Assembly: GCA_029210175.1 (NCBI GenBank) | Contig: JARGPL010000015.1 | Span: forward strand, 62,001-126,000 | DNA from: Minwuia sp. | GTDB lineage: Bacteria > Pseudomonadota > Alphaproteobacteria > Minwuiales > Minwuiaceae | Direction of reading: 5' to 3' | DNA: 64,000 nt | In this document: positions 45,823 through 52,935 of the stretch, piece by piece | Numbering within the stretch: the first letter of the stretch is position 1 | How the letters are laid out: every line of letters starts with the position of its first letter | The notes under the pieces: generated by a model | Databases searched by the model: none | What the model was told of the DNA's origin: nothing | What the model saw: only the letters and a program-made list of their open reading frames with translations | Position numbers and translations under genes: made by a program

Positions 45823-46377
45823 TCAGATACGGCTCGACAGCCAGATCGCCAGCCGTGACCCGGCCTTGATCCCGCCGGTCAGCACGCCGTAGCCCGGTGC
45901 GTCTGCTGCGTCATGAGCCCGGGCGATATCGCGGTGTTCCACCTCTTCGGCGCGGAAGGTCTCGATGGTTTCCTGCAGTTCCGGTTCCACACCATCGGCG
46001 GCCAGTTCAGCGGTCTGCCGGGCATAGTGGGCGTCGATCACTTCCTCGACCGCTTCCGTGCAGGCCATCGCCGCCTTCTCGCCCATGAGGGCCGTGCCAG
46101 CGCCCAGCGCGTACCCGGCCACGTGCCAGAGTGGCGACAGCAGTGTCGGGCGGACCTGGCGTTCGTTCAGCAGGTCATCGAAGGTCCGCAGGTGTTTCTC
46201 TTCCTGCGCCGCCATATGCCGGATCGTGTCACCGGCTGGCTTGTGGCCAAGAACCGCAAGCTGCCCCTGATAGATACGCCGGGCACCGTATTCACCGGCC
46301 TGGTCGACGCGCAGGATTCGTTCCAGCCGGGTCTTCCGATCCATGTCGCCTGGCAGGTGGGCGGCTGTTGGTTGCAT
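45823..46377 (-). CDS. coq7: Demethoxyubiquinone hydroxylase family protein (Coq7-type)
   Basis: 184 residues. The di-iron carboxylate ligands of the Coq7/CLK-1 family are visible: EYGARRIYQGQL, MAAQEEKHLRTF, ACTEAVEEVIDAHY and FRAEEVEHRDIA. It would hydroxylate demethoxyubiquinone in the penultimate step of aerobic ubiquinone synthesis, at the inner membrane. A polyprenyl diphosphate synthase for the quinone side chain lies at 60.6 kb. The ATG shares a base with the dsbB stop, so dsbB and coq7 are coupled. Whether it belongs functionally with the glyco-genes downstream is unclear. Confidence 0.92.
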   Translation of the reverse strand: MQPTAAHLPGDMDRKTRLERILRVDQAGEYGARRIYQGQLAVLGHKPAGDTIRHMAAQEEKHLRTFDDLLNERQVRPTLLSPLWHVAGYALGAGTALMGEKAAMACTEAVEEVIDAHYARQTAELAADGVEPELQETIETFRAEEVEHRDIARAHDAADAPGYGVLTGGIKAGSRLAIWLSSRI

Positions 46378-46943
46378 CAGTTGCTCCTGATCCTCAGGGC
46401 GGCAAGATACAGCATCAATATCGCCGCCAGGGTGCCGAACACGGCGTTCCAGCCCGCGATCGAAAGACCCAGAAACGCAAAGGGTATCTGGTCACAACGG
46501 GCGGGCTGCGCCCCCATGATCTGGGCCTTCAGATCTGCCAGGGTATCCGGCGTGGAGATGGCGCTGCAGGACTCCAGCCCCTTCCAGAGCCCCTGTTCGA
46601 CGCCCGCATGAAACATGCCGACACCTGCCGAGGTCGCAAAGGCCACAGCCGCAAGCAGCAACAGCGCTGCGCCGCCACGCGGCATGGCAAAGGCCACCAG
46701 ACCCAGTGCGATGGCCACCACATAGGGCCAGCGTTGCCAGACGCAAAGCGGGCAGGGCGGCAGGGCAAACCCGTACTGGGCCAGCATCGCCATGCCAAGC
46801 GCAATGGCCGGTGGCACCACGATGGCGATCGCGGGCCGGGCCGCGAGATATGTCAGGACGGATCGCATCGAAGAACCATGAACGCTGCCCGACAGGCGGG
46901 CAACGACATCGTTGTCGCGGCGCGGCTTGATGGTTTCATTCAT
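46377..46943 (-). CDS. Disulfide bond formation protein B (DsbB)
   Basis: 188 residues with four membrane helices. The first redox pair is CPLC in FALPPCPLCVWQRWPY, and the second pair is the spaced cysteines of LESCSAIS and QPARCDQIPFAF. DsbB reoxidises DsbA and passes electrons to quinone, so its coupling to the quinone gene coq7 makes functional sense. The gene starts the minus-strand array and is divergent from the cysteine-rich CHASE2 protein gene, 64 bp away. The N-terminal 25 residues before helix 1 are longer than usual. Confidence 0.9.
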   Translation of the reverse strand: MNETIKPRRDNDVVARLSGSVHGSSMRSVLTYLAARPAIAIVVPPAIALGMAMLAQYGFALPPCPLCVWQRWPYVVAIALGLVAFAMPRGGAALLLLAAVAFATSAGVGMFHAGVEQGLWKGLESCSAISTPDTLADLKAQIMGAQPARCDQIPFAFLGLSIAGWNAVFGTLAAILMLYLAALRIRSN

Positions 46944-47007
46944 GATCGTTCCGTGTGTAATCTCGGTATGGAAAACAACCTCAGCGTGATTGAATCAGGT
47001 AGTGAAC

Positions 47008-49158
47008 ATGGAACAGGACGACGCTCACGCACATGTACCACGGCAACTGCGGCGACACCGGACCGTCGATCTGGGTGATCTCGCGTTGCGCAGGATCGTG
47101 CTGGCGCTGCTGGCCTTTCTGCTGATCGCGACCTTCAACCCCCTGGGCGTGAAACGTAACAGTGAAATGGCGACGCAGGACTTCTTCGAAACGATTTTTG
47201 CGTCGGTCTTGCCGCGCGCTGCCTTGACCACCCCGGAAGATGCCTATCGCCACATCCTGAACCACGGGCCGTTGCCCAATTGGGCAGAGAGCGAAGCGGC
47301 TGCCGCGCGTTTCATGCAGCAGCTGGCGGTGACGGACTGGTCAGACGAGCAGGCCCTGAGAGCCAACGACCCGCACAAGGCCAAACCGTGGGCACCGATC
47401 CACATTCTTCGTTTCGACGACACGGTGATGGCGAAGATCGATCCACCGAAGGTCGGTGAGTATCGCAGATTCGGACGCCACCAACTGCCGCTGGACAAGG
47501 TCACGGTGATGTTGCGGTTGCTGTCCCGCCTGAAGGTCTCGGTCGTCTTCCTGGACATCCGGTTCCTCGCCGATACCGTGCCGGACGGCAGGTTCTGCGA
47601 CAGTGAGGTGCATGAATGGGCCAGATACACACAACATCCAGGCAATGCGGATCAAGCAGGTACCATTGACGGAGCGTTGAGCGGGAAACCGTTCCTGTTC
47701 CTCGCGGGGCTTTCTGCCGGCCATGCCTTGCGGGCGCAAGTGGCTGAGGCCATGGATGCCGGTTCACTGGATTCAGCACAGGAAAACCCGCTGCAGGCAG
47801 ATGCAGTGACCGCAGGCCAAGGGTCAGGGGCTGATCGGCGCACCCGCAATGATCGGTTCTGGCTGCCCAGACGGTTCGAATGCCTGCGGGAGATCGGTCA
47901 GTTGGTGCCGGTCCAGTGGGTTGGGACGGACTATCCCATCGCGATCGATGCAGCGGAGTCCGTGCATCAGCCGCGTACGATCCGGCAGTTGGGAACGTTT
48001 GCCAGGGGCGGCGACCCTGCTGGTGCGCAAACGGTCCCGCTCACCGGCCCGGCCAACGCGCTGATGCCCTCACCCGCGGCCGAGCTGTTCGCGGCATGGT
48101 GCCTCCATCCGGCATCCCTCGTGCGCGAATTTCCGCAGTGCAATCCGCGTTTCCTGAAGGTCGCTTACCCGGACATCGTCGACAGCGCGCGCAGAACGGC
48201 CATTCGGGCCGCGCTTGGTGTCAGGCCACCGGGCAGCGCCGATGCGTCAGAACCCTGGCGTCTTGCCGTGCGGCCCTACGCACGTACGCCCAAGGTCTAT
48301 CTGTCGCTTCCCGACAGCACGGACCCTGAGATCACCGAAGCGAATGGTGAACCGCTGAAAGGCATGGTCGCTGTTCATGGTTGCCGACCGGAAGACGCGT
48401 TCCTCGATGATCATGATATCTTCAGTTGGCCCGCAGCCCTCCTCCACGGCAAGTACGTGATCAGGCGTCTCGGTGATGAACTGATCGGCAACCGCGCCGG
48501 AACGGACGGGGCCTATGCGCGTGGCTGCTCCAACATCGCGATGCATGAAGCGTTCTTCTCACCCGCCCACTGGCCGCAGGCCGGCAATTGGCGATGGGCC
48601 AGCTTCGTGAAGCAATCCTTCGTCGGATCGGCCGTCATCGTCGCCGGGAATTTCGACAATGCGCCAGACACCGTTTCATCGAGCCTGTTCGGCAACAAGG
48701 TGGGGGCATTTCTGCATGCGGAGGCACTGCAATGCCTTGTCTGGTACGGGGACCACTGTCCCCGGCGGGCACAGGGAATTATCTGGGAACTCGACCGCAT
48801 GGATCTCGTGGAGCTGGGGATCCTGCTGCTGCTGATGGCCATGAGCCGAGGGATCATTCGGAAGGCGCACCTCTCGCAACCCAGTCCGACCCATAGGCCC
48901 CGGGCGCGGCGGTTCCTCTGCCTCAGGGTCCATCGCGAATACGCGCTGGGTTACCAGCGCGCCCTCGTCGCATGCATTCCGGTGGCGCTGCTGGCAACCA
49001 TTCTCGGCATGGTATTCCTGCCCTATCCATCCGCCGACCTGCTGGCCCTCGTACTCGTTCTGGGCGTCATCTTCCGTGAAGGGGCCGTCGGGCTGGTTCA
49101 GCGGTTCCTTTGGCGGATATCGGAACAGGTTTCGTTGCGCTTGCTCGGGCGCAGCTGA
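47008..49158 (+). CDS. CHASE2-domain membrane protein without cytoplasmic output domain
   Basis: Start candidates are TTG 46990, GTG 47002 and ATG 47008, and the ATG is used, giving 716 residues. Helix 1 (RIVLALLAFLLIATFNPLG) is followed by an extracytoplasmic CHASE2 domain with ILRFDDTVMAKIDP, PLDKVTVMLRLL, VVFLDIRFLAD and, at its far end, SAVIVAGNFDNAP, SLFGNKVGAFLHAEALQCLV. Three C-terminal helices end the protein. CHASE2 normally sits in front of a kinase or cyclase, and here no output domain exists. The external part has at least eight cysteines and a long insert (about residues 225-440). It heads a co-directional group with a small secreted protein and an M48 lipoprotein. Confidence 0.78.
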   Translation: MEQDDAHAHVPRQLRRHRTVDLGDLALRRIVLALLAFLLIATFNPLGVKRNSEMATQDFFETIFASVLPRAALTTPEDAYRHILNHGPLPNWAESEAAAARFMQQLAVTDWSDEQALRANDPHKAKPWAPIHILRFDDTVMAKIDPPKVGEYRRFGRHQLPLDKVTVMLRLLSRLKVSVVFLDIRFLADTVPDGRFCDSEVHEWARYTQHPGNADQAGTIDGALSGKPFLFLAGLSAGHALRAQVAEAMDAGSLDSAQENPLQADAVTAGQGSGADRRTRNDRFWLPRRFECLREIGQLVPVQWVGTDYPIAIDAAESVHQPRTIRQLGTFARGGDPAGAQTVPLTGPANALMPSPAAELFAAWCLHPASLVREFPQCNPRFLKVAYPDIVDSARRTAIRAALGVRPPGSADASEPWRLAVRPYARTPKVYLSLPDSTDPEITEANGEPLKGMVAVHGCRPEDAFLDDHDIFSWPAALLHGKYVIRRLGDELIGNRAGTDGAYARGCSNIAMHEAFFSPAHWPQAGNWRWASFVKQSFVGSAVIVAGNFDNAPDTVSSSLFGNKVGAFLHAEALQCLVWYGDHCPRRAQGIIWELDRMDLVELGILLLLMAMSRGIIRKAHLSQPSPTHRPRARRFLCLRVHREYALGYQRALVACIPVALLATILGMVFLPYPSADLLALVLVLGVIFREGAVGLVQRFLWRISEQVSLRLLGRS

Positions 49159-49285
49159 GCGGGCATCCGGCGCTGTCTGCTCCATTTGAGTGTATTTATT
49201 TCCAGGGATGCTCGCATGAATGATTGTGTTGACCTGCATTCTCTCGCACAATCGGGCCACGCAAGAGCTGGATGGGGATCACGGC

Positions 49286-49669
49286 GTGAGAAAAAAAATT
49301 GGTCTTGCTGCCCTCGCGTTGCTTGGCAGCCTTCTCAACTCCGGTGCCATGGCCTGCGAAACAGGTCGCACCTTTTGTGTCCTGGACAATGCGACGACAG
49401 ATCGCCTGGACCGGAATTACGACGTCGTGGGAACCGGCAAACCTGGCAGCATGACGGCGGGTAAGGGGGTTCAACCGACCCCCGACGGTATGGTCGAAGT
49501 CTTTGCGGTCGATGGCAAGGGCTGCCGGGTAGCGGGCGGCGAAGCGTTCTTCATGTACCCGGAAGTCTTCGCATTTGATCCGCCGAAACGCCTGCCGTCG
49601 CTTGCGGGAAGTATCACTTCCGGGGCGTCTTACGGCTCTGGCGGTGGTGGTGGGGCGATCTGCAAGTAG
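49286..49669 (+). CDS. Small secreted four-cysteine protein, function unknown
   Basis: The GTG at 49286 (VRKKIGLAALALLGS) is chosen because it gives a signal peptide ending GAMA-CET. The ATG 66 nt upstream would bury it. The mature part has about 103 residues and four cysteines (ACETGRTFC, GKGCRVAGG, GGGGGAICK), compatible with two disulfides. It has one strand-rich core (DGMVEVFAVDGKGC, EAFFMYPEVFAF) and a Gly/Ser-rich tail. A lipoprotein is less likely because the residue at -3 is Ala and there is no Leu. No family is recognised. It lies between the CHASE2 and M48 genes and is presumably exported with them. Confidence 0.65.
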   Translation: MRKKIGLAALALLGSLLNSGAMACETGRTFCVLDNATTDRLDRNYDVVGTGKPGSMTAGKGVQPTPDGMVEVFAVDGKGCRVAGGEAFFMYPEVFAFDPPKRLPSLAGSITSGASYGSGGGGGAICK

Positions 49670-49704
49670 GCAGCGTCGGGATCGGGAAATCTGGGAAATT
49701 GTTC

Positions 49705-51672
49705 ATGCGTGTTTTTGTGAAGTTGGTTCTGGCATCGTGCATCTTGCTGGCAGGCTGCAACGGTAATGACGGGGAGCCGCCGATCACGACGCAGTTCTCG
49801 CATGCCCTGTTCGGTGACCCCAAGGAAGTCGGCCTGAAGCGCGATGAGGCGTTCCAGGAACAGGTGAAGGCACTCGTTGGGGGTACGCGCCTGGTCATGA
49901 CGGACCCGCCGTTGGTCAACCCCCGACTGCCTGCACGCCTGGACGGTGGTGCAACCATCGTCGACATGCCGGTGTCACGTGCCTACCTGCGCAATCTCGC
50001 CGAGAAATTGCTGGGCTATTTCCCGCCGACACTGAATGCGCGCGAGATCGATGTCTTCGTCATTTCCGGTGGCGGGTACGAAGCGTTTGCGAATGAACAG
50101 GGTGACATCTTCGTATCAGCACGCTGGTTCGTTGATGCGATGGATCCGGAAACGGGGGGCGAAATCCTCAGCGAAGACAGTCTGGCCTTCCTGCTGGCGC
50201 ATGAGATTGCTCATGTGCACCTGAACCACTTCAAGGACAATGAGAGTTTTCTGGATCTGGAAACACTGCTGGATACGGTGCAGGAAGCGATCAGCATCTA
50301 CAGTCAGGTGAAGCGTTCCGGATTGTCAGGTGAATCCGGCATGACGCCGGAACAGCGGCGCAGCCATCGCGCGGTCAACCGCAGGGTGGAGGCTTCCTTC
50401 AGCGCCATCAAGGCCATGCAGGTTGGCGGGCTTGAGCCGATCCTGTGGCGCGACAACGAGCTGGATGCCGATACGCTGGCCGTCCGCGTGATGACCGTCG
50501 CAGGATATCAGCCACGCCTGACCAACCCGACCTTCAACCGCCTGGGGGAAGCCCAGAAGAAGGTGATGCAGGACCTTATCCATCAACTGGAAATCGTCGG
50601 AATTGCCATCAAAGCTCTGGCCGAATTGAGCAGTGAAAACAAACTGATAACAGTTGTTCAGGCACAGGGCGTGGACCTTTCGATCCGCGCCGCCCTGGCC
50701 TTGTTCCGCGAATGGTCGGAAACCCATCCGCCAATCGCGCAGCGCAAGGCGTCTTCCGCCCTGCTTTATCGTGAACGGCTCTACAAGGAAATACCGGGCG
50801 CGCGCCGCCAGATGCCAAAGGCCGTTCCGGAAGATATAGCGACAGAAACCGCCAAGCTGCGCAGCGTTCTGAAGGCGTCGGATGTGCACGCCTGCCTGAT
50901 CTTTCACAAGGACGAGCACAAGAATATCGATGACGACATTGTTCTCGTCAGCGCGGACGGGACGAAACGGGTAACCTGGCAGGAGATGCGGGTCGCCGCG
51001 TCCGATGTTGAATATACGCCGGACGAGAGTTACCAGGCAGGAACGAAACCGAAGTCATACAAGTCCCTGGCTGAACAGCCGACGCCCCCGTCGAAACGAA
51101 AGCCAAGCGCGTCCTGTCCCTTCAGTGATGCGCCTTTGCAGCCCAATGACATGTCGATCCTGGCCGAAAGGATCCGTGGTGAGATCAGGTCGTTCCGGGG
51201 GGAGCGCACGGCACCGGGTTATCTCTGGTACGTGTTCGGCGCGATCCGGCAGGCACAGGGGCGTCTGGACGATTTCCACGAGAATCTCGAGCGCGGCTAC
51301 CGCAGTGCGCATGCCGAACCCCTGTTGATGCGTGAACAGGCGCTGGGTGCCATAGAGCAGGACGCCTTTGGCATCGCAGATCGCAGGATATCGGAAATCG
51401 AGGAGACCTTCGGCACTGTCTGGGGCATGGATTTGCGTGCCAATGTTTCCCTGAAGCAGGGGAACGTCGTGGAACTTGCCCGGACACTGAGTGCCTGCGA
51501 GGACACGAACAACCGGACGGTTGAAAGCCGGTGCGATGTCGTGGAACTGAAAGCGCGTCAGGCTGGCGTGACGCAAGCCTCATCGTCAGGGGCAACCGGG
51601 CAGCAGATCGAGCAGGGATCGGAAAAGAGTCAGAGTCTGTTCGGCAAGATATTCAACGGCCTGACGAACTGA
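49705..51672 (+). CDS. M48-family zinc metalloprotease lipoprotein
   Basis: The ATG at 49705 gives 655 residues with a lipobox (ILLAGC, Cys18). The peptidase domain spans about residues 85-370: VSRAYLRNLAEKLLGYF, AFANEQGDIFVSARW, the zinc motif HEIAH (166-170) and the distal Glu ligand in NELDAD (Glu252). An insert of about 80 residues separates these motifs. The C-terminal half (residues 370-655) includes a helical, TPR-like section (DLRANVSLKQGNVVELARTL). BepA-type M48 lipoproteins with TPRs control outer-membrane protein and LPS-assembly quality, so a periplasmic quality-control or signalling protease is plausible. It is the last gene of the CHASE2 group. Confidence 0.85.
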   Translation: MRVFVKLVLASCILLAGCNGNDGEPPITTQFSHALFGDPKEVGLKRDEAFQEQVKALVGGTRLVMTDPPLVNPRLPARLDGGATIVDMPVSRAYLRNLAEKLLGYFPPTLNAREIDVFVISGGGYEAFANEQGDIFVSARWFVDAMDPETGGEILSEDSLAFLLAHEIAHVHLNHFKDNESFLDLETLLDTVQEAISIYSQVKRSGLSGESGMTPEQRRSHRAVNRRVEASFSAIKAMQVGGLEPILWRDNELDADTLAVRVMTVAGYQPRLTNPTFNRLGEAQKKVMQDLIHQLEIVGIAIKALAELSSENKLITVVQAQGVDLSIRAALALFREWSETHPPIAQRKASSALLYRERLYKEIPGARRQMPKAVPEDIATETAKLRSVLKASDVHACLIFHKDEHKNIDDDIVLVSADGTKRVTWQEMRVAASDVEYTPDESYQAGTKPKSYKSLAEQPTPPSKRKPSASCPFSDAPLQPNDMSILAERIRGEIRSFRGERTAPGYLWYVFGAIRQAQGRLDDFHENLERGYRSAHAEPLLMREQALGAIEQDAFGIADRRISEIEETFGTVWGMDLRANVSLKQGNVVELARTLSACEDTNNRTVESRCDVVELKARQAGVTQASSSGATGQQIEQGSEKSQSLFGKIFNGLTN

Positions 51673-51673
51673 C

Positions 51674-51697
51674 CCGGTGCGGGCGTACCCGCACCGG
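51674..51697. terminator. Perfect 10-bp hairpin between convergent genes
   Basis: CCGGTGCGGG-CGTA-CCCGCACCGG is a perfect inverted repeat with a 4-nt loop, starting 1 nt after the M48 stop and ending 19 nt before the globin-relic stop. There is no T-run on either side. It could act as a transcript-end stabiliser or a bidirectional terminator. Confidence 0.55.
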
Positions 51698-51716
51698 ACA
51701 ATGCAGCGTTGATGCT

Positions 51717-52033
51717 TCAGCGGATGAGCACGGCATCCCGCAAGCCGCCTGCAGCACCCATGACCACGGCAGCGATCTCAGGCGGCACGGACAATTCGAC
51801 CCGCGTCGCGTCCACGTGAGGGGCAACGGCGTCGAAGTGGGCATCACTGATGCCCTTTTGCTTCACCAGGTCGGCGTGGGCAGGGCGCATATAGGCGTCC
51901 ACGTGCGATGCCTCGCTCCTGAACAGGGCCGTGAAGAACGCGCGCTGCTTGCCTTCTGGAAACCAGAAAATGCTCTTCGGTGCAAAAAAGGTACGGGTAT
52001 CCAGAAAAATCCCGCAGTACGGGTATCGGACAT
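51717..52033 (-). pseudogene. Truncated-haemoglobin relic, frameshifted near its start
   Basis: The readable frame contains FWFPEGKQRAFFTALF, HVDAYMRPAHADLVKQKGIS and SDAHFDAVAPHVDATR, then PPEIAAVVMGAAGGLRDAVL. This matches the C-terminal two thirds of group I/II truncated globins, including the proximal-His region. An ATG at 52033 overlaps the desaturase stop (TGATG) but is in the wrong frame. An 11-bp direct repeat (GATACCCGTAC) lies 26 nt apart just after it. Deleting one 26-bp unit would join MSDTRTFFAP to the globin frame. Even then helices A and B are missing, so the gene is probably dead. An in-frame start further up would overlap the desaturase by about 95-140 nt. Confidence 0.6.
51991..52027. 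repeat. 11-bp direct repeat with 26-bp period, causing a frameshift
   Basis: GTACGGGTATC occurs on the plus strand at 51991-52001 and 52017-52027. The 26-bp period is not a multiple of three. It lies at the 5' end of the globin relic and looks like a slippage-type partial tandem duplication. Confidence 0.75.
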
Positions 52034-52935
52034 CACGACTTGCGGTGGTCGGCGACCTGTTGTCGTTCCTCGGCCCGGATGGCGGCTGATGTCCGCCCGG
52101 TACCGTCAGGCCGCCAGCCAGGGGCATGGAAAAGGTATCCTGCAGCGGTGCGCAGATCAGGTGCCTGGCGCGCATCGCGGATCATGTCCACCCACTCGTG
52201 GAAAGCGATCCGGATGGGGTTGAAGGTCGCGATCTGGCGGACGATGCCATAACGGCAGGGCTCGGCGGGATCTTCCGGGACAAAGGTGCCGAACAGGCGG
52301 TCCCAGATGATCAGGATGCCGGCGTAGTTGCGGTCAAGGTATCGGGGGTTGGTCGCATGGTGCACCCGGTGGTGAGACGGGGTGTTGAATATCCATTCGA
52401 TGGGGCGGGGCAGGCGGCCCACGGCCTCCGTATGGATCCAGAACTGGTAGACCAGACTGATGCCCATCGAGAAGGCGACGAGCTTCAGTGGAAAACCCAG
52501 CAGGGGCAAGGGCGTGTAGACAATGAACGTGCCCGCGACATTGCCGGTCCAGGTCTGGCGCAGCGCGGTGGACAGGTTGTAGTGCTGTGACGAGTGGTGG
52601 TTGATGTGCGACGCCCACCAGAACCGGTGTTCGTGGCTCAACCTGTGAAACCAGTAATAGCAGAGGTCCTGGGCAAAGAAGATCGCGACGAACGCCCACC
52701 ACTGGAAACCGATGTCGAACAGGCGGTATTGATGGATCCAGGCGAAGAGTCCGTAGACCACCACAACGAACGGAATGCCCGTCGCCAGATTGCCGACCCC
52801 CATGATCAGGCTGGCTGTCGTGTCCTTCAGTTCGTATCGCACCGCGCGAACCCGGAAGTATCCAAGCGCCAGTTCCATGATCATCAGGACGATGAAGGCG
52901 GGAATGGCGAGTTGCACCGGTTGTGGCAGGTTCAT
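52033..52935 (-). CDS. Sterol desaturase / fatty acid hydroxylase family protein
   Basis: 300 residues with four or five membrane segments. The di-iron histidine boxes are HRLSHEHRFW, HINHHSSQH and HRVHHATNPRYLD. Members hydroxylate or desaturate sterols, carotenoids, fatty acids or ether lipids in the membrane. The start overlaps the stop of the small membrane protein upstream (ATGA at 52932-52935), and the stop overlaps the ATG of the globin relic. The C-terminal 35 residues after the last block are variable and charged. The lipid substrate is unknown. Confidence 0.9.
   Translation of the reverse strand: MNLPQPVQLAIPAFIVLMIMELALGYFRVRAVRYELKDTTASLIMGVGNLATGIPFVVVVYGLFAWIHQYRLFDIGFQWWAFVAIFFAQDLCYYWFHRLSHEHRFWWASHINHHSSQHYNLSTALRQTWTGNVAGTFIVYTPLPLLGFPLKLVAFSMGISLVYQFWIHTEAVGRLPRPIEWIFNTPSHHRVHHATNPRYLDRNYAGILIIWDRLFGTFVPEDPAEPCRYGIVRQIATFNPIRIAFHEWVDMIRDARQAPDLRTAAGYLFHAPGWRPDGTGRTSAAIRAEERQQVADHRKS

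Follow-up and report, generated by a model that had tools for sequence, protein, structure and literature searches.

The window analysed here is a stretch of 64,000 nucleotides from contig JARGPL010000015.1 of the alphaproteobacterium Minwuia sp., and the system in question is a set of three neighbouring genes coding for a CHASE2-type membrane protein, a small secreted protein and an exported M48 metallopeptidase. Comparison between genomes shows, at the level of sequence, that these three genes are inherited together as one unit. We tentatively read them as a receptor-controlled periplasmic protease, that is, one envelope unit in which the protease would be the enzymatic arm, an interpretation to which we give somewhat less than even weight. 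The features of the locus are as follows.

47008..49158, + strand: gene for the CHASE2-type membrane protein (ATG at 47008, 716 amino acids), with an N-terminal transmembrane segment, a large periplasmic part, a long insert and three C-terminal transmembrane segments
49286..49669, + strand: gene for the small secreted protein (GTG start at 49286, 127 amino acids), with a glycine-rich tail and a Cys-Lys end
49705..51672, + strand: gene for the M48 zinc metallopeptidase, a predicted lipoprotein (ATG at 49705), with a Pfam match and zinc motifs
50200..50214, + strand: HEIAH zinc site of the M48 protein (sequence motif)
50458..50472, + strand: ELDAD of the M48 protein, its Glu being the third zinc ligand (sequence motif)
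51674..51697, + strand: perfect GC-rich hairpin of 10 bp without a T tract, separating the triad from a convergent gene

A first-pass annotation of this DNA had placed three co-directional open reading frames (ORFs) at these positions and assigned all three products to the envelope; the ORFs are indeed there, on the same strand, and all three products are predicted envelope proteins. The intergenic gaps measure 127 nucleotides between the CHASE2 and small genes and 35 nucleotides between the small and M48 genes, for the latter of which a TTG at 49699 is an alternative start.

To find relatives, each window protein was used as a query against 96 genomes, its own included. The CHASE2 protein and the small protein had relatives in three of these (the own genome and the congeners G001 and G002), in all of which the three genes are adjacent. 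Relatives of the protease appeared in six genomes, and at the additional three (G008, G041 and G043, outside the genus) a CHASE2 gene recognised by Pfam and a small secreted gene adjoin the protease. Because the protease was the only query that led to these three loci, their adjacency is independent evidence. A profile made from five protease sequences was then run on 387 genomes of the class and matched in 105 of them at 1e-10 or better, mostly other M48 proteins. In the neighbourhoods of the 25 best-scoring class genomes, CHASE2 was adjacent in 17 of the 18 at E≤8.5e-24 and in one of the next seven (G374, whose protease match came in two pieces). The one genome of the 18 that departs from this, G188 (locus L069), carries the small gene next to a protease located at the end of its contig.

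A scan of named genome contigs with the window protease alone returned nothing. With six module proteases as queries, 375 relatives came up in the named genomes, and the best 80 of these, which are not a census, were scored with local profiles. The loci fell into 34 strong (E≤4e-54) and 46 weak ones (E≥1.1e-33), separated by a wide gap. CHASE2 was adjacent in 32 of the 34 strong loci versus 3 of the 46 weak ones, some of which also lie on short contigs. One strong locus without CHASE2 (L103) sits on a contig that starts just before the small gene. It should be underlined that 11 of the 34 strong loci are from Pseudomonas, and that L084 is not an independent case because it shows the same triad as G008, a seed of the protease profile. 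By reading, a small gene stands beside the protease in all 34 strong loci. Run against all ORFs of the 80 loci, a profile of the small proteins from 14 further class loci (the G350 member was not included) picks that same ORF in 30 of the 34 at E≤1e-3 and in every one at E≤1, and at the latter threshold it has no match in any of the 46 weak ones.

The strong group includes Thalassospira, Kiloniellaceae, Minwuiaceae, Roseospirillum, Defluviicoccus and Arenibaculum as well as Azoarcus, Pseudomonas, Stutzerimonas, Vibrio and Methylotuvimicrobium, so the triad spreads over Alpha-, Beta- and Gammaproteobacteria. Annotated examples are TMO_RS20615/20620/29800 on Tistrella mobilis pTM1 and FDP22_RS20915/20920/20925 on Paroceanicella profunda pD4M1B, where the arrangement and direction of the three genes agree with those in the window; both records label each gene separately and name no system. 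Photobacterium sp. DA100 carries a triad without annotation. CHASE2 itself was found in 195 of the 387 class genomes, and at three other CHASE2 loci of the own genome no module M48 was present within stretches of 17.7–20 kb. The window alone could not exclude that unrelated genes had come together by chance. The neighbourhood counts, with the weak-tier proteases as control, speak against this, and recurrence of the triad in distant genomes, orders and orientations leaves the idea a negligible probability. The proposal that the three genes belong together, for which the first-pass annotation had suggested a search for co-occurrence, is thus borne out: they are neighbours in most strong-tier loci.

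Gene order was compared in 36 loci (33 strong and 3 outlying). The order CHASE2-small-M48 occurs in 29, one of which has two M48 genes, small-M48-CHASE2 in three and small-CHASE2-M48 in one; two more have small-M48 with CHASE2 reversed, and one (L101) has small-M48 without CHASE2. CHASE2 runs in the opposite direction in L061, L062 and L071, and the adjacency of CHASE2 and M48 survives inversion in L061, L062, L071, L085 and L092. Two tandem M48 genes lie inside one triad at L104:3939-7106. In G000, G001 and G002 the triad lies between a gene for DsbB and one for a fatty-acid hydroxylase. In the congener G003 the matches to these two genes are 560 nucleotides apart, which is too short to fit a triad and marks an empty site. 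The distribution is patchy, with the triad present in three of the seven genomes of the genus.

The hairpin downstream of the protease gene had been claimed to close the unit. It is present at 51674-51697, and a 61-nucleotide fold around it has −25.5 kcal/mol and a z of −2.98, equalled by 2 of 200 shuffles; it has no T tract, however, and was not among the predictions of a terminator scan. A scan for sigma-70-like promoters in 46300-52300 gave none, which is uninformative as 1.5 would be expected by chance.

The window protease matches Pfam PF01435 with E=4e-11 (43.5 bits against a cut-off of 20.3), and together with HEIAH, ELDAD and a lipobox-like LLAGC this agrees with its earlier designation as a predicted M48 lipoprotease. 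A lipobox-like motif, searched with a loose pattern, occurs in 31 of 48 proteases. The zinc motifs are intact in all 34 strong named loci and in 18 of 19 module M48 proteins of an earlier set, and a C-terminal pair of cysteines is invariant in 18 aligned members. The peptidase domain of the window protein is followed by a C-terminal part, putatively TPR-like according to the first-pass annotation. The G008 protease (L026:8886-11036) has a C-terminal SH3_3 domain of its own (E 1.7e-10), and its locus contains the small gene as well. Against solved structures the window protease and the window CHASE2 protein gave one weak match each, with E 0.81 and 0.47, respectively.

The M48 zinc site and a weak match to the NCBIfam BepA model (NF052400) over residues 87-177 raise the question of whether the unit might serve envelope quality control, with a BepA-like protease, CHASE2 as its anchor and the small protein as substrate adaptor, and with no signalling involved. 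That BepA match (19 bits, E 4.8e-4) and the lipobox-like motifs are consistent with such a function. However, 19 bits is far below the BepA cut-off of 570 bits, so that identification of the window protease as BepA was rejected; the module proteases also differ from BepA in their C-terminal Cys pair and their linkage to CHASE2. Moreover, 43 of the 46 weaker-tier M48 proteins have no CHASE2 beside them, and fusions of the receptor to cyclase and TIR domains (see below) point to signalling. We regard quality control as improbable.

With regard to the small protein, the window copy has a signal-peptide-like start and cysteines at positions 24, 31, 80 and 126. The first-pass description of a small four-cysteine secreted protein is therefore accurate for the window, but four cysteines are a local feature only. 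Among 29 aligned small proteins one Trp and two Cys are near-invariant; the window protein has Phe and Ala in the columns of the Trp and the first Cys and keeps the last Cys. A tail resembling RGLGxGC is frequent, and a Cys lies near the C-terminal end in 32 of the 33 strong-tier small proteins listed. The exception is the Azoarcus indigens protein (L091:5606-6001), which has no cysteines at all and yet retains a GTRAIG stretch near its end.

The fold of this protein was approached by structure prediction. The AlphaFold model of the window copy was poor, with a predicted local distance difference test (pLDDT) score of 67. For the relative from L087 the mean pLDDT was 75, and 58 of its 125 residues, roughly 31-100, reached at least 90. 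Most of the matches listed for the L087 model in the PDB are SH3 domains or cell-wall enzymes, and the latter presumably carry an SH3 domain; an SH3-like fold is common in cell-wall-binding proteins. The best Foldseek E value was 1.7e-2 and Z reached 7.6. Because a Z under 8 can reflect a common arrangement, these matches support an SH3-like fold but do not prove it. An SH3b identity drawn from the small protein's own sequence was rejected: Pfam SH3 families gave no match at E≤0.1 to the 29 small proteins (window included), hhalign of the family against outlying SH3 proteins was weak (15.8%), and the window model was poor. The modelled L087 relative looks SH3-like, and through it the small protein is better described as an SH3-like protein with a C-terminal Cys tail.

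The membrane protein of the window matched no Pfam family at E≤1 and did not reach the cut-off of PF05226. It is the sole miss among 48 proteins of equivalent loci, the other 47 of which match Pfam CHASE2 at E≤0.01 (that of L070 falling just below the PF05226 cut-off). The congeners G001 and G002 have proteins that align with it at 49 and 47% identity, and a joint profile of these three gave an hhalign probability of 95.3% (E 2.1e-8) against 11 CHASE2 relatives, in a match that spans only 128 columns of the C-terminal part. On the strength of this profile homology, and because it occupies the corresponding position in an equivalent cluster, the window protein is assigned as CHASE2-type. Hydropathy places segments at 30-48, 599-617, 653-671 and 672-690 and leaves a tail of 26 residues, giving a predicted topology of one transmembrane segment, a large outer part and three transmembrane segments. 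Eight of the ten cysteines fall between the first and second hydrophobic segments, in keeping with the claim of at least eight periplasmic cysteines. As judged by the 26-residue tail and the lack of a Pfam domain, the protein has no output domain, and this, like the three C-terminal helices, is as first annotated. Its congener at L022:7364-10300 is about 260 residues longer and has a weak coiled-coil match (LIP-1, E 0.0013, residues 469-578). A search of solved structures with a CHASE2 profile gave no match.

Each of the 48 CHASE2 proteins that accompany a module M48 was scanned with Pfam, and 43 have no output domain; the tails of output-less relatives after the last transmembrane segment are at most 77 residues long by hydropathy. 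Four carry a C-terminal cyclase (L061, L062, L085 and L092, one group on the M48 tree with support 100/100), and one carries an N-terminal TIR_2 domain in an otherwise ordinary triad (L098:3289-5322, Defluviicoccus, E 4.2e-21). The absence of an output domain, which applies to the window and to most relatives, is thus not a defining trait of the module. In G188 a gene for an nSTAND1/DUF4062/TPR protein (L069:2108-5986, E 8.2e-85) directly follows the small and M48 genes; no CHASE2 was seen on that stretch, and one may or may not lie beyond the contig end. Both secreted proteins persist in the cyclase, TIR and STAND loci; they are therefore constant partners rather than a mere stand-in for an output that was lost.

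These effectors bring to mind an anti-invader or cell-fate module, in which a periplasmic sensor would trigger the TIR, cyclase or STAND protein, or protease activity where there is no effector. The TIR_2 domain of L098 and the STAND gene after the M48 gene of L069 fit this, as do PADLOC matches of the L085 cyclase part to a Pycsar cyclase (1.2e-25) and of the L069 STAND protein to PDC-S60 (3.3e-8), and the patchy presence of the triad with an empty site in a congener. On the other hand, the three window proteins (at E≤0.01) and the three L084 proteins had no PADLOC match, TIR and STAND occur once each, the cyclase matches may only mirror a shared cyclase domain, and one M48 member had no phage match. 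Taken together, this makes an anti-invader role quite unlikely.

Three weak-tier loci with CHASE2, namely L134 (WOR-3), L140 (Sabulitectum) and L146 (Fermentibacteria), also encode a secreted SH3 protein, with SH3_3 above cut-off in L140 and L146 and just below it in L134; these small proteins have no cysteine and no Cys-type tail. In both L140 and L146 a cyclase is part of the CHASE2 protein, and that of L134 is truncated by the contig end. The triads of these candidate phyla at L140:3315-6867 and L146:3099-6663, in which a CHASE2 cyclase goes with an unambiguous SH3 protein and an M48 protein of only 322-326 amino acids, are possibly an older form.

In the proposed receptor-controlled protease, the CHASE2 protein would serve as receptor or scaffold in the membrane, with the small SH3-like protein as a periplasmic adaptor of the receptor or a piece acted upon and the M48 enzyme as the enzymatic arm. 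The state of an output-less receptor would be read out by switching or positioning the protease in the periplasm, and some relatives have a cytoplasmic cyclase or TIR on the receptor in addition. The first-pass annotation had likewise proposed that the protease may be the output, or that the small protein may be its substrate or inhibitor. In favour of receptor control stand the linkage of the three genes, with a CHASE2-M48 pair that survives inversion, the intact zinc motifs, the 43 of 48 CHASE2 proteins with no Pfam output domain, their short tails and, in the flanking DNA covered, the absence of a well-conserved fourth gene. A wider version, in which the genes form a plug-in periplasmic cassette whose transmembrane sensor would govern a protease at the outer face of the membrane instead of or besides interchangeable inner effectors (none, cyclase, TIR, perhaps STAND in trans), so that the primary output would be periplasmic proteolysis, seems to us possible but less likely than not.

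Several observations weigh against a protease under receptor control. The four cyclase loci and the TIR locus keep the small gene and the M48 zinc motif, and L069 does likewise; as cyclase- and TIR-bearing relatives keep both, the protease may serve sensing and not output. The G233 protease (L070:6284-8080) has LEVAH in place of HExxH, with the first zinc His lost, and is for that reason probably inactive, although the locus is kept. The M48 tree groups this protein with the window protease (support 96/93) on long branches, a long-branch join that we do not rely on. L101 is a true exception at the distances covered, since neither the 2.7 kb upstream nor the 0.8 kb downstream of its small gene and protease contains a CHASE2 gene. 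In the window, the small protein is missing both the Trp and the first Cys that are otherwise near-invariant, and the model of this copy is poor. Finally, the search behind the absence of a well-conserved fourth gene, made with 1338 flanking ORFs of at least 100 amino acids from 50 loci (BLAST E≤1e-8), is insensitive: it missed the divergent small gene itself and often covered only about 2–4 kb before CHASE2, so that a divergent fourth gene may have been missed. The search gave three loose clusters, each common to three or four taxon groups; by sequence one resembles a short-chain dehydrogenase, one the ATPase of an ABC transporter and one a zinc dehydrogenase.

The chief competing model is that the small protein and the M48 enzyme act upstream of the receptor, capturing or cutting a signal, either from the envelope or incoming, and handing it to CHASE2, which would pass it via its membrane helices to a cytoplasmic partner encoded elsewhere or, in relatives, to its own cyclase or TIR. 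The persistence of both secreted proteins in cyclase- and TIR-bearing relatives is in line with this model, and known CHASE2 receptors have extracytoplasmic accessory proteins, LysM-FecR (PMC5192318) and NsrA (PMC13001267). Against it stand the short cytoplasmic tails of the output-less receptors and the lack of a well-conserved fourth gene beside the triads, the latter with the insensitivity to divergent genes just described and with the provision that a partner elsewhere would not show. Given such accessory proteins in the known systems, a position of the protease before or after the receptor is plausible in either case; the upstream model strikes us as possible but on the unlikely side.

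Returning to the triad as a receptor-controlled protease, its closest parallels are CHASE2 receptors (PF05226) with a kinase or cyclase, which have the same N-terminal transmembrane segment, periplasmic CHASE2 part and three transmembrane segments. In contrast to these, the window protein and 43 of the 48 have no cytoplasmic output, and here a small protein and an M48 enzyme are neighbours. The same order of transmembrane segment, CHASE2 and three transmembrane segments is described for the BiofilmReg kinase, whose operon combines a CHASE2 histidine kinase with a secreted LysM-FecR protein and a response regulator, sometimes with a DUF4136 protein (PMC5192318). The likeness lies in a CHASE2 membrane protein with a co-directional secreted protein carrying a cell-wall-type domain. 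BiofilmReg differs in having a kinase and response regulator, no protease in the portion of the description available, and a LysM-FecR instead of an SH3-like partner (PMC5192318). No histidine kinase or response regulator was present among the six window proteins scanned (the triad and flanking genes). The first-pass annotation knew of no described system with this composition, and full-text searches of open-access papers turned up none either; the passages seen of PMC4439547, PMC13001267, PMC8195603 and PMC5192318 do not describe the triad.

According to a 2016 paper, the factors sensed by CHASE2 were not known (PMC5192318), and a 2026 paper reports that the plant ribosomal protein uL2 is sensed through NsrA for CHASE2 cyclases of S. 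meliloti (PMC13001267). A compact triad in which a receptor is linked with a protease and a small secreted protein would offer a tractable route to CHASE2 signals, and its output-less, cyclase-bearing and TIR-bearing forms allow one to ask whether the protease precedes or follows the receptor. In genomes that have been annotated gene by gene, the triad further provides a three-gene unit that can be recognised and whose distribution is patchy.

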